Below are positions 8,389 to 11,811 of a DNA stretch of 41,364 nt, piece by piece. The position numbers and the translations under genes are program-made. This DNA is from Opitutus sp. GAS368 (GTDB lineage: Bacteria; Verrucomicrobiota; Verrucomicrobiia; Opitutales; UBA953): the NCBI GenBank assembly GCA_943330755.2, contig CALQIY020000006.1, positions 1 to 41,364 of the forward strand, read 5' to 3'. The notes beneath the pieces were generated by a model, which saw only the letters and a program-made list of their open reading frames with translations, was not told the origin of the DNA and did no database searches. How positions within the stretch are numbered: position 1 is the first letter of the stretch; each line of letters begins with the position of its first letter.

Positions 8389-9141
8389 TTACTTTCCCTT
8401 GAAGGCCGCTTCGGTCGCCTTCCAGGCCTCGTCGACGGCCGGACGGAGCACCTTGGCGATTTCCTTGTAGCCGAGTTCGCTGGGGTGGAGGTTGTCCTTG
8501 AGGTAGTGACCTTCCTTGCCTTCGCCGTTGGCTTGATTGAGGGCGGGGTTGATGTCGACGAACCAGGTGTTCTTTTCCTGTTTCGCCAAGGCGGCGAGGT
8601 CGCGGTTGAACTGGTCGAGGTCAACCCACTTGGCCTTGCGCGACGGGGCACGGGTGGTGGCCATGAAGACCACGGCGGTGTCGGGATTCGCCTTGCGCAG
8701 GCGAGCGAGGTATTCCCGGATGCGCTGGATGGGGGCTTCGGGCGGATCGCCGGCGTTGATGTCGTTGCCACCGCAGTGGAAGACCACCACGCGCGGGTGG
8801 TAGGGCAGGGTGATGCGGTCCATGTAGCCGAGGACCTCGGTGGTGTAAGAGCCGCCGAAGCCGCGGTTGATGGTCGGGTAGGGCTTCATTTCTTCGGCGA
8901 CGTTTTTCCACATCCGCAGCGAGCTGGCGCCGCTGAGCAGGAGCGCGTGTTGCGGCGGTGGGTTGGCCTTGTCCTGCTTCTCGAAGGCTTCGATGTCCTT
9001 GGCCATGCGCAGGGGCTGCTCGGCGAGCGGCTTGCGGACGGCGGCCTTCTCGGCGGGCTTGGCGGCGGCCTTTTCGGTGGGCTTGGGGGCGTCCGCGCCG
9101 AAGAGCGCGGCGGCAAGGAGGAGGGGGAGGAAGACGCGCAT
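8389..9141 (-). CDS. Exported SGNH/GDSL-type esterase
   Basis: A secreted hydrolase of 250 residues. After the signal peptide (to about residue 16) comes a Lys/Ala/Glu-rich linker with EKAA repeats (20-36). The catalytic blocks are LLLSGASSLRMW (block I, serine around 73), NRGFGGS (block II), GGND (124-127, block III) and DNLHP (Asp216, His219, block V). Block I has GASS where classical GDSL enzymes have GDS, but a GSSS-like form is usual in this branch. Likely role: removal of acyl groups, for example from carbohydrates; substrate unknown. The start is preceded by ACCCCTCCCCACC and diverges from the DUF5069 gene. Confidence 0.88.
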   Translation of the reverse strand: MRVFLPLLLAAALFGADAPKPTEKAAAKPAEKAAVRKPLAEQPLRMAKDIEAFEKQDKANPPPQHALLLSGASSLRMWKNVAEEMKPYPTINRGFGGSYTTEVLGYMDRITLPYHPRVVVFHCGGNDINAGDPPEAPIQRIREYLARLRKANPDTAVVFMATTRAPSRKAKWVDLDQFNRDLAALAKQEKNTWFVDINPALNQANGEGKEGHYLKDNLHPSELGYKEIAKVLRPAVDEAWKATEAAFKGK

Positions 9142-9250
9142 GGTGGGGAGGGGTGACCATGATGCAGGGGATACGCTGAGGACTGTAAAGGGGGAAACAT
9201 CGCCGGCGTTGTCCCCTTGCCAAAGGGTCCGCTGTTTCTACTTTGCGGGC

Positions 9251-9697
9251 ATGCCCAACGTCCCTGGTCTCCGCAGCCCCTATGAAGCCGTCCGTGGCTT
9301 CGTCTACCTTCCCCGGATGCTCGATAAACTCCGCCTGCATGCCCGGGGCGCGTTGCACCCCGACTTCGTCAACAACCTCGGCAAGGCCTTCGATGACCGT
9401 TGCTGCCAATACCTCGGCATCAAGTACGACGAACTGCGCATCTGGGTCCTGGGTAATCCGGCCGTCACCGACGAGGAAGTCATGGTTTGGGCCGAAGCCC
9501 GTGGCCGCAAGTTGAGCACGAATGACATCGAGATCTGGAATGGCTTCATGACCAAGCGGGGTTGGCGCGACGAGGCCAACGAGGTGCTCCTCCGCCGCCT
9601 CAAGGAGAACGCCCTCGGGCCCGAGGCGGGCGTCGACACCATGTTCGACTACATCGAGGTCGATGAGGGTCGCCCGGCCCGCCGCCAGGCGCTCTGA
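9251..9697 (+). CDS. DUF5069 family protein
   Basis: A cytoplasmic protein of 148 residues with no signal peptide or membrane segment. The sequence from LRSPYEAVRGFVYLPRMLDK to the C-terminus matches the DUF5069 pattern: a conserved LRSP entry, an R-hAxG segment and a cytosolic alpha-helical layout. This family has no known function and is common in Opitutae-type Verrucomicrobiota. The frame is open further upstream, but that part overlaps the divergent esterase gene; ATG 9251 fits the start of the conserved domain. No clear ribosome binding site is visible (CTTTGCGGGC before ATG). Confidence 0.78.
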   Translation: MPNVPGLRSPYEAVRGFVYLPRMLDKLRLHARGALHPDFVNNLGKAFDDRCCQYLGIKYDELRIWVLGNPAVTDEEVMVWAEARGRKLSTNDIEIWNGFMTKRGWRDEANEVLLRRLKENALGPEAGVDTMFDYIEVDEGRPARRQAL

Positions 9698-9846
9698 GTC
9701 GTGGTTGGGGATTGAGTCGGGGCGGGCGATTCGTATAAATCATTGGAGTCGACTGGTCTGCCTTGGGCGGAATGGTTGCCTCCCTCCTCGCGTGCTCGCC
9801 CCTTGTTTCATCCTTACGTCCGCTCCGGACCACGCCGTTACGGCTA

Positions 9847-9855
9847 GAGAGGTGG
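9847..9855 (+). promoter_or_regulatory. Shine-Dalgarno-like site of the first small membrane gene
   Basis: GAGAGGTGG lies 4 nt before the ATG at 9860. It is one of only two convincing purine-rich sites at a gene start in the window (the other precedes thiL), and it decides the start of this gene. Confidence 0.6.
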
Positions 9856-9859
9856 CCGT

Positions 9860-10351
9860 ATGGTGACGTTGGACGTCATTTTGGCGGATGCCGCCGTCGA
9901 GGCGGTCAAGGCCGTCAAGGACCCGAATGCGGTCACGAACAATTTCCAAGGTGCGATCCTCGCCTTCAAGAAAGGCGGTTGGATTGTCTCCCTCATCGGC
10001 GCGGCCGCGATGGTCGGCCGCCTCTTGATCGACGACGCCGCCGACGCGAACTGGCGCCGATCCGCGAAGCACATCCTGGCGGCCGCTCTCTTCGCCATCA
10101 TCGCCTTCTTCGTGACCTACCAGTGGGAGATGTCCGCGATCAACAAGGCCATCATCCAAGGCCTGACGGGAGCGCTGGCCCCCGAGCTCGTCGACTGGAT
10201 CTCCGCCAACATCAAGGCCAAGCTCGGCATCAAGGACAAGAAGTCCAAAGGCCGCGGTCGGAAACGCTCCTCGGGCCGGAAGCGCTCGAAGCCCAGGAAT
10301 CCGGACGCCGCGGTCCCGGCGCCGAAGCCATCCCGACGCAAGCCGCGCTGA
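9860..10351 (+). CDS. Small two-helix membrane protein with basic tail, unrecognised
   Basis: The protein has 163 residues and no signal peptide. Two hydrophobic helices are visible: about 39-56 (GGWIVSLIGAAAMVGRLL) and about 70-88 (ILAAALFAIIAFFVTYQW). A segment with GLTGALAPELVDWI follows, then from about residue 120 a strongly basic, Lys/Arg/Ser/Pro-rich tail (KKSKGRGRKRSSGRKRSK and onward). The overall plan recalls small holin-like proteins, but I cannot assign a family. The tail could bind nucleic acid or acidic lipid. It lies 28 nt upstream of a second small membrane protein gene and probably forms a two-gene unit with it. Confidence 0.7.
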   Translation: MVTLDVILADAAVEAVKAVKDPNAVTNNFQGAILAFKKGGWIVSLIGAAAMVGRLLIDDAADANWRRSAKHILAAALFAIIAFFVTYQWEMSAINKAIIQGLTGALAPELVDWISANIKAKLGIKDKKSKGRGRKRSSGRKRSKPRNPDAAVPAPKPSRRKPR

Positions 10352-10362
10352 ACCCCTTTAAT

Positions 10363-10383
10363 ATGAAACCCACCCAACTATGA
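10363..10383 (+). other. Possible minicistron MKPTQL overlapping the next start
   Basis: ATG at 10363 opens six codons (MKPTQL) that end in TGA at 10381-10383. The stop overlaps the ATG at 10380 (ATGA). The downstream gene has no Shine-Dalgarno site of its own, so re-initiation from this minicistron is conceivable. It may also be chance. Confidence 0.25.
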
Positions 10384-10832
10384 GTGCCACCCGTTCCCGA
10401 CGTCGAACCGCCAAGACGGGCCTGGTCCAGGCCGAAGCCGGCATCGTCGGCATGACCGTCGTGACCTTGCTCGTCTCCCTCGCTGGCCTATGGTTCAGTC
10501 ACGAGCTCAAGGACACCACCGAGCGCGTCCGCGGCGCCACCGTCAACATCCAGTCCTCCGTCGATGCGTACAAGAAGGCCATGAAGTCGACCGAGACGGC
10601 GGTGGTCCTCATCACGGACGAGGGTACGAAGTCGGACAACAAGAAGGTCGAAGAGACCGCCAACAAGGCCGTGGCCGCGCTCATCAATGCCGAACGCGAC
10701 ACCAAGGACTGCATCACGCTGCTCGATCAGGTGCTGAAGCTTCTGGCCACCTACGAGACGACCACGGTCACGTTCGCGGGTTGTTCGCTGATTTTCGCCC
10801 TCTTCGTCATCATCCGCCAATTCAAGCTCTAG
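10380..10832 (+). CDS. Small membrane protein with coiled loop between two helices, unrecognised
   Basis: The protein has 150 residues. It begins with a basic N-terminus (SATRSRRRTAK), then a first membrane helix (about 22-40, IVGMTVVTLLVSLAGLWF). A mainly helical hydrophilic region of about 85 residues follows (40-125), likely to form a coiled coil, and a second helix (about 128-145, VTFAGCSLIFALFVII) ends in RQFKL. By the positive-inside rule both ends face the cytoplasm and the helical domain faces the periplasm. I recognise no family. It follows the other small membrane gene and converges with thiL (16 nt between stops). Together they may form a membrane pair of unknown job. Confidence 0.7.
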   Translation: MSATRSRRRTAKTGLVQAEAGIVGMTVVTLLVSLAGLWFSHELKDTTERVRGATVNIQSSVDAYKKAMKSTETAVVLITDEGTKSDNKKVEETANKAVAALINAERDTKDCITLLDQVLKLLATYETTTVTFAGCSLIFALFVIIRQFKL

Positions 10833-10848: not shown

Positions 10849-11811
10849 TTAGCCGAAGTGGCTGAAGCCTTGGGCCTTGATGGGCTGCTGGTCGGCGGCG
10901 TCGCAAAGCCTGCCGCTGCCCTTGGCAAGGGTACCGATCGCGGTCAGCGGGGTGTTCGGGAAGGTTTTGGTGAACGTCGCCGCCAGGAAGTCGGCTTGGT
11001 CGGCGCTTACGGTGAAGAGCAGCTCATAATCCTCGCCGTCTTGGAGGGCGTGTTCGCGGGCGGGCTTGCCGTCCTGACGCGCGAGCTTGGTGGCGGCCTC
11101 GGAGATGGGTAATTGCGGCAGGTTCACGAGGCCATCGAGCTTCGGGCCGAGCAGGCCAGGGAGATCCTTGGCGAGGCCGTCCGAGAGGTCGGTGCACGCG
11201 GTGACGGCACCTTGGGCGCAGAGCCATTCGCCTTCCGCGAGCCGCGCCTGGAAGTTGAGGTGGTGTCCGTAGATCGAGCCACCCAGGTGCCCGGTGACGA
11301 AGAGCACGTCGCCGGCTTGGGCGGTGCGACGGGTGAGGATGCGGTAGGCGAAGCCTTGGACTGCGAGCGTGGCGCTGAAAGTGCCGGGAGCGGTGCGGCA
11401 GACATCGCCGCCGACGACCTTCAGGCCGGCGCGCGCGGCCGCGCGGCCGGCGCCATAGGCGAAGTCTTCCAGCCATTGGGCGTCGACATCCGGCCCCATG
11501 AGGATCGAAAGCAGCGCGTCGCCCGGGGTCGCCCCGGCGGCGGCGAGGTCGCTGAGGTTGCGTTGGATGAGTTTGGCGCCGGCCTTCTCACCGGAGCAAG
11601 AGAGGTCGAAGTGCCGACCGAAGACGACGGAGTCGATGGTGGCGACGCGGAAGGGGCGCTCCTGGCTGGCAGGGAGGATCGCGCAGTCGCCGCCCGGGCC
11701 TGCGGGGAAGGGAGGGCAGGCGTCGGCCAGCGTGGTGACGAAGCGCTGGATGATCTCCCCTTCGGTCAACTTGCCGACGCTGAGTTCGCTTTGCTTCGTG
11801 AAGACGCCCAT
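10849..11811 (-). CDS. thiL: Thiamine-monophosphate kinase
   Basis: ThiL phosphorylates thiamine monophosphate to thiamine diphosphate in the cytoplasm, the last step of cofactor synthesis. The protein has 320 residues, normal for the family. Features of the AIRS/PurM-type fold are visible: GPGGDCAIL and TIDSVVFGRHFDL near the N-terminus, NLSDLAAAGATPGDALLSILM (metal and ATP site), VVGGDVCR, TDLSDGLAKDL and HALQDGEDYELLFTV. The start has an upstream AAGGA, one of the few good ribosome binding sites here. It is the last gene of the pyrB, pyrC-like, CPBP, thiL series, 69 nt after the CPBP gene. Confidence 0.93.
   Translation of the reverse strand: MGVFTKQSELSVGKLTEGEIIQRFVTTLADACPPFPAGPGGDCAILPASQERPFRVATIDSVVFGRHFDLSCSGEKAGAKLIQRNLSDLAAAGATPGDALLSILMGPDVDAQWLEDFAYGAGRAAARAGLKVVGGDVCRTAPGTFSATLAVQGFAYRILTRRTAQAGDVLFVTGHLGGSIYGHHLNFQARLAEGEWLCAQGAVTACTDLSDGLAKDLPGLLGPKLDGLVNLPQLPISEAATKLARQDGKPAREHALQDGEDYELLFTVSADQADFLAATFTKTFPNTPLTAIGTLAKGSGRLCDAADQQPIKAQGFSHFG

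Follow-up and report, generated by a model that had tools for sequence, protein, structure and literature searches.

Two small genes for membrane proteins, P1 and P2, lie among housekeeping genes in the window, which is the whole 41,364-nucleotide stretch of Opitutus sp. GAS368 DNA analysed here. They raise the question of what these proteins are related to and what such a pair may do for its host.

A two-gene unit among housekeeping genes

The preliminary description had read the locus as two adjacent plus-strand open reading frames for proteins of 163 and 150 residues, and its coordinates, strand and lengths are exact. The locus is laid out as follows:

9712–9739, + strand: candidate promoter of the pair (TTGAGT, 16 nt, TATAAA), proposed from the sequence
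9849–9854, + strand: Shine–Dalgarno site of P1, GAGGTG, the sole 6-base match to the anti-Shine–Dalgarno sequence among the 28 window genes checked
9860–10351, + strand: P1 gene, encoding a 163-aa holin-like inner-membrane protein with a basic C-terminal tail
10380–10832, + strand: P2 gene, encoding a 150-aa bitopic helical-hairpin membrane protein

The two genes are separated by 28 bp and share the plus strand in a region that is mostly minus-strand. A DUF5069 gene (about 9248–9697, + strand; PF16798, E 6e-32) lies upstream of P1. On the 3' side of P2, the opposite strand encodes ThiL (10849–11811), a CAAX-type protease, PyrC and PyrB; these names derive from the sequences themselves, with additional search support for the protease. 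The core-gene setting noted earlier is thereby confirmed, with housekeeping genes on both sides and none of them related to the pair. Likewise, the Shine–Dalgarno site of P1, described as strong, is the best of the 28 examined, and AGG-type sites precede most P1 orthologues. The TTGAG motif of the candidate promoter recurs in almost all orthologue leaders when these are aligned. An automatic scan for consensus promoters did not list the TTGAGT-16-TATAAA site, because TATAAA lacks the final T. The P1 leader contains no RNA element detectable with Rfam.

Distribution and selection

P1 and P2 are found in an identical set of 35 out of 55 genomes of the genus, and neither ever occurs alone. The genus comprises metagenome-assembled genomes and other assemblies of freshwater Opitutales (Verrucomicrobiota), e.g. 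UBA953, UBA957, UBA7397 and BS6/BS8/BS10. First searches detected neither protein in 40 genomes from elsewhere in the order, family-level profile searches returned the same 35 carriers and none of 24 genomes from four sister genera, and a class-wide search of 384 genomes with a P1 profile yielded members of the genus only. Relatives in other genera can thus be rejected for the family, order and class samples, whether sought with single sequences or with profiles. The pairing does not extend across PVC genomes; co-occurrence and gene order are confined to one genus. Within the genus, the order DUF5069, P1, P2 and, convergently, ThiL is constant in all 20 loci read. Perfect co-occurrence, fixed order and loss as a pair strongly support the conserved two-gene unit suggested by the preliminary description.

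Both are real genes under purifying selection. Amino-acid identity to other clades of the genus is 69–77% for P2 and 71–77% for the P1 core, third codon positions are heavily diverged and dN is well below dS. Moreover, conservation of P2 equals or exceeds that of the adjacent ThiL in most of these loci. Limited to a few terms, our literature search gave no previous description of such a pair for Verrucomicrobiota. The locus is a good candidate for something undescribed, as had been proposed: a genus-level pair that is dispensable yet selected.

History of the locus

In ten members of the genus a clean empty site is found, where the DUF5069 gene directly adjoins that for ThiL. Eight empty loci had sufficient data for a tree of five flanking proteins, in which they occupy four places, and the alternative of a single loss, with all empty sites in one clade, was rejected (AU test, p=0.00013). 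Since the empty sites do not form one clade, the pair has probably been lost or exchanged whole on several occasions, although the backbone of the flanking-protein tree is weakly supported and the exact number of losses uncertain. The pair was probably gained once and present early in the genus. Several losses, or recombinational replacements by an empty allele, probably followed, one of them in a lineage with small genomes (1.3–1.5 Mb). Overall, P1 and P2 look like vertically inherited chromosomal genes.

Four non-carriers (G002, G013, G019 and G036, 75–92% complete) differ from the others in that these searches found neither a close homologue of DUF5069 nor any match to ThiL; either assembly of the region failed in each of them or the deletion is genuine. 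Next to the pair, local rearrangements are seen. Two loci (L038, L040) carry an MFS transporter gene beside an SGNH hydrolase on the strand opposite to that in other members of the genus, and tandem SGNH copies are found in several relatives (L034, L042, L043 and L126–L128, listed with L038 and L040). At another locus (L045, genome G016, 8748–10030) the PyrC match is broken into two pieces at 9851, which points to a frameshift in the dihydroorotase gene or an assembly error.

The window's own assembly (G000) holds a second version of the region on another contig (C68, locus L031, 1–5524), with genes for ThiL, P2, P1, DUF5069, SGNH and MFS at 47–82% protein identity to the window copies. A paralogous copy in the same genome was rejected on the grounds of these same neighbours at such identities, which instead make DNA of another species in the bin the most likely source. 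Two species of the genus are probably mixed in this bin. In addition, a record titled Polynucleobacter meluiroseus (CALPIW020000055.1, L059) holds an Opitutales P1/P2 locus and appears to be mislabelled.

P1 weakly resembles holins of superfamily III

Two membrane helices had been ascribed to each protein. This stands for P2, whereas P1 has, in addition to two clear hydrophobic segments (residues 31–61 and 66–95), a less hydrophobic third helix (93–121). Its N-terminus is amphipathic and weakly hydrophobic. P1 is thus predicted to have two or three membrane helices, and the following features were delineated:

9980–10039, + strand: first transmembrane (TM) helix of P1, residues 41–60, with the almost invariant GGWIVxLIGAAAMVGRLL
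10052–10123, + strand: second TM helix of P1, residues 65–88
10136–10204, + strand: third, semi-amphipathic helix of P1, residues 93–115, INKAIxQGLxGALAPELVDW
10232–10348, + strand: Lys/Arg-rich tail of P1, presumably disordered and cytoplasmic

By the positive-inside rule, the charges of P1 (RRSAKH between TM1 and TM2, and the basic tail) would fit an N-out, C-in arrangement of three helices, like that of class I holins. The AlphaFold model of P1 is poor (pLDDT 51) and has no Foldseek match in the viral set, and neither P1 nor P2 has a sequence match in the PDB.

In an HMM scan of 13 P1 members, PHROG 6384 and PHROG 785 each matched 12 (best 4.4e-5 and 4.2e-4, respectively), PHROG 9752 matched nine, and PF16083 (Phage_holin_3_3, LydA) matched all 13 weakly, at best with E 5.2e-4. 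P1 never reaches the Pfam gathering score for PF16083 (28.4 bits; the window protein scores 16.9), whereas the true holins L166, BcepSauron and Mcat8 exceed it at 32.6–55.8 bits. The match is carried by TM2 and the third helix, and these are also the regions that hhalign aligns with TM2–TM3 of known PF16083 holins (E 7e-4 for a single comparison, probability 25–27%). No holin family was matched by reversed P1 sequences, in which composition and hydrophobic pattern are preserved. Across 240 genomes of the phylum, PHROG 6384 gave seven matches, two of which are P1; another overlaps an aminotransferase frame, which places the noise level at about 5e-4. Within the genus, the same profile matched P1 in 24 of the 35 carriers (best 3.5e-6) and in none of the 20 non-carriers. 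The P1 of the window is among the weaker matches and went unmatched in this genus-wide scan. Away from the P1 locus, PHROG 6384 also matched a 183-codon frame at 6e-5 (G032:C265:11283–11507), and three further, weaker matches were recorded in the genus.

By the reversed control and the contrast between carriers and non-carriers, the similarity of P1 to holin superfamily III is more specific than composition explains. Holins have TM helices and a basic C-terminus (PMC9025707), and P1 displays this layout, with its two or three TM helices and basic C-terminus. We consider P1 to be probably a remote relative of superfamily III, short of proven membership. The earlier statement that no family could be assigned thus gives way for P1, which has a weak but specific link, and stands for P2. 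Holins of the LydA type (PF16083; PHROG 6384/785), such as that of Burkholderia phage BcepSauron (QBQ74665.1), share with P1 a small size, two to three short TM helices and a C-terminus that is basic, and their TM2–TM3 can be aligned with those of P1, with Gly in the same place. P1 differs from them in scoring below the curated cut-off, in its much longer basic tail, in having no adjoining endolysin, in its chromosomal, vertical inheritance and in its obligate partner P2.

The weakness of the holin scores, with an hhalign probability of about 25%, could also mean that the match reflects a composition shared by short TM proteins. P1 and P2 would then form a small membrane channel, a transporter or a stress sensor, with the P2 hairpin as sensor and P1 as effector, and without descent from holins. 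BioY and other membrane families indeed match P1 members at 0.006–0.05. The reversed-sequence control argues against this reading, as does the contrast between carriers and non-carriers with the whole holin profile, and we regard it as rather improbable.

The basic tail of P1

The long basic tail reported for P1 is borne out: beyond residue 124 there are 39 residues, of which 18 are Lys or Arg and two are acidic. Among orthologues the tail varies from 22 to 106 residues and is always strongly basic, with a net charge per residue of +0.28 to +0.51. In a subclade with long tails (L056–L077) a low-complexity K/A/P stretch is followed by a conserved C-terminal end of the DDGQxxLNL type, possibly a docking peptide. 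The tail is long for a holin, which counts against the holin reading.

The main alternative builds on this tail. According to it, P1 would be only an anchor whose K/R/A/P tail, similar to that of histone H1, binds DNA, RNA or anionic lipid, while the hairpin of P2 serves as a periplasmic scaffold towards the envelope, and no pore is formed. Orthologue tails match low-complexity basic tails, namely, those of HC2 (0.0056), the Rv3852 family (0.019) and a Val-tRNA ligase (6.8e-5), and both vertical inheritance and the fixed locus would suit a role in cell biology. However, these matches are compositional. Furthermore, the tail is the least conserved part of P1, whereas the membrane helices are nearly invariant, suggesting a function in the membrane, and the repeated loss of the pair shows that it is dispensable. 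We therefore hold such a tether or envelope organiser to be unlikely, if the foremost of the alternatives.

P2 is an orphan family with a predicted periplasmic hairpin

P2 displays two clear hydrophobic segments (residues ~13–43 and 125–150) with about 80 residues between them, and its features are:

10440–10505, + strand: first TM helix of P2, residues 21–42, in a nearly invariant GIVGMxVVTLLVSLAGLWFSHEL
10506–10751, + strand: predicted periplasmic helical hairpin of P2, residues 43–124, with its turn at a conserved SDNK
10752–10820, + strand: second TM helix of P2, residues 125–147

Both termini are short and basic, so that by the positive-inside rule both ends should be cytoplasmic and the hairpin periplasmic. 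This agrees with the helical, probably periplasmic region that had been described between the two helices. AlphaFold predicts a helical hairpin with helices 13–74 and 88–149, in a model too poor to rely on (pLDDT 56), and comparison of this model with PDB structures returned only generic long-helix hairpins at the level expected by chance. No Pfam, NCBIfam, PADLOC or PDB relative was found, and P2 represents a conserved family that has no known relatives.

The Rz-like spanin family PHROG 5151 matches eight of 12 P2 members weakly (best 4.6e-4). Rz-like i-spanins (PHROG 5151, 89) share with P2 an N-terminal TM helix followed by a periplasmic helical region; P2 differs in a second TM helix leading back into the inner membrane and in having no o-spanin. 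Reversed P2 sequences gave chance matches to other families down to 0.009. A spanin identity was rejected, because the matches are near noise after this control and the second TM helix contradicts it; with two strong TM segments and no lipobox, P2 has the make-up of neither an i-spanin nor a u-spanin. The pair resembles LydA–LydB of phage P1, where a holin of the same superfamily also comes with a regulator of its own. No TM domain is predicted for LydB (PMC9025707), and P2, with two, is set apart from the description of LydB by topology; an antiholin of the LydB type was likewise rejected.

Phage, secretion and defence contexts

Neither IMG/VR nor GenBank phages contain relatives of the pair, and a phage origin by direct homology was rejected. 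P1 has housekeeping neighbours in all loci, rather than the phage genes or endolysin that would accompany a holin, and no endolysin, spanin pair, phage gene or defence island was found at the locus. PF00959 lysozyme is absent from all carriers. The genus' only PF00959 phage lysozyme (E 1.6e-44; G043:C128:35406–35792), possibly of a prophage, is found in a genome without the pair.

The holin match of P1 and the spanin matches of P2 could together be read as the remnant of a lysis cassette, of a phage or of a type 10 secretion system (T10SS), with the endolysin encoded elsewhere. T10SS are clusters of holin, endolysin and spanins that are known outside phages (PMC10847048), and the P1 locus is comparable in that a holin-type protein occupies a fixed chromosomal position in bacteria. 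By contrast, the interval between DUF5069 and ThiL contains P1 and P2 alone, with no holin/endolysin/spanin cluster and no i-/o-spanin pair, and a T10SS was rejected. The C-terminal second TM helix of P2, the absence of an outer-membrane lipoprotein, the chance level reached by reversed P2 and the lack of a neighbouring endolysin or of PF00959 in carriers further speak against a remnant, which we judge highly improbable. Vertical inheritance in a single housekeeping locus is in any case unusual for a lysis module, and this counts against the holin reading too.

Membrane effectors are common in defence, and the pair might act in abortive infection, with P1 damaging the membrane and P2 restraining it until phage attack. 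The presence/absence polymorphism at one site and loss as a unit would be consistent with this. Conversely, PADLOC gave no family above noise (the best match, at 0.0015, was Csx1 TM+CARF over the TM part), there is neither a sensor or nuclease domain nor a defence island, and the site is the same throughout the genus, with a strictly vertical signal. A defence role is thus very unlikely. Among the three roles suggested in the preliminary description, the holin-like pair fares best because of the weak but specific link of P1 to superfamily III, the membrane defence effector is without a PADLOC match above noise or a defence island, and the envelope organiser keeps the place given to it above.

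A putative membrane lesion or channel with its own regulator

In both proteins the TM helices are nearly invariant, as opposed to the freely varying tail, which points to a function within the membrane and to contact between P1 and P2. We tentatively favour the view that they form a vertically inherited two-component membrane unit, a lesion or channel with its regulator, that descends from a phage holin system or has converged on one. More doubtful is the specific version in which the pair is domesticated and genus-specific: P1 would be a holin-derived lesion or export channel bearing the polycationic tail, P2, a hitherto undescribed bitopic protein with a periplasmic hairpin, would gate it, and the unit would serve the cell rather than a phage, having been lost or swapped whole time and again at its single site.

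The topology, transcription as an operon, direct contact, lesion formation, gating and physiological role that follow are our inferences. P1 would be an inner-membrane holin similar to class I, with its N-terminus outside, three helices and the basic tail in the cytoplasm. It might oligomerise via its nearly invariant Gly/Ala-rich helices and, when triggered, form a membrane lesion or channel, while the polycationic tail, by binding anionic lipid or nucleic acid, could tune the timing or location of triggering. P2, produced from the same operon, would be anchored by its two nearly invariant TM helices with the 80-residue hairpin facing the periplasm, and may bind P1 in the membrane through TM–TM contacts, keeping it closed or gating it according to the state of the envelope. 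The outcome would be regulated permeabilisation, namely, self-lysis and release or small-scale export.

If P1 is a domesticated holin, uncultured lake bacteria would possess a cellular, vertically inherited system for disrupting membranes in the manner of holins, with a membrane-anchored regulator of its own and no adjacent endolysin, adding one more case to the few known non-phage holins. The unit would moreover be naturally polymorphic, so that its benefit could be sought by comparing carriers with their empty-site relatives.
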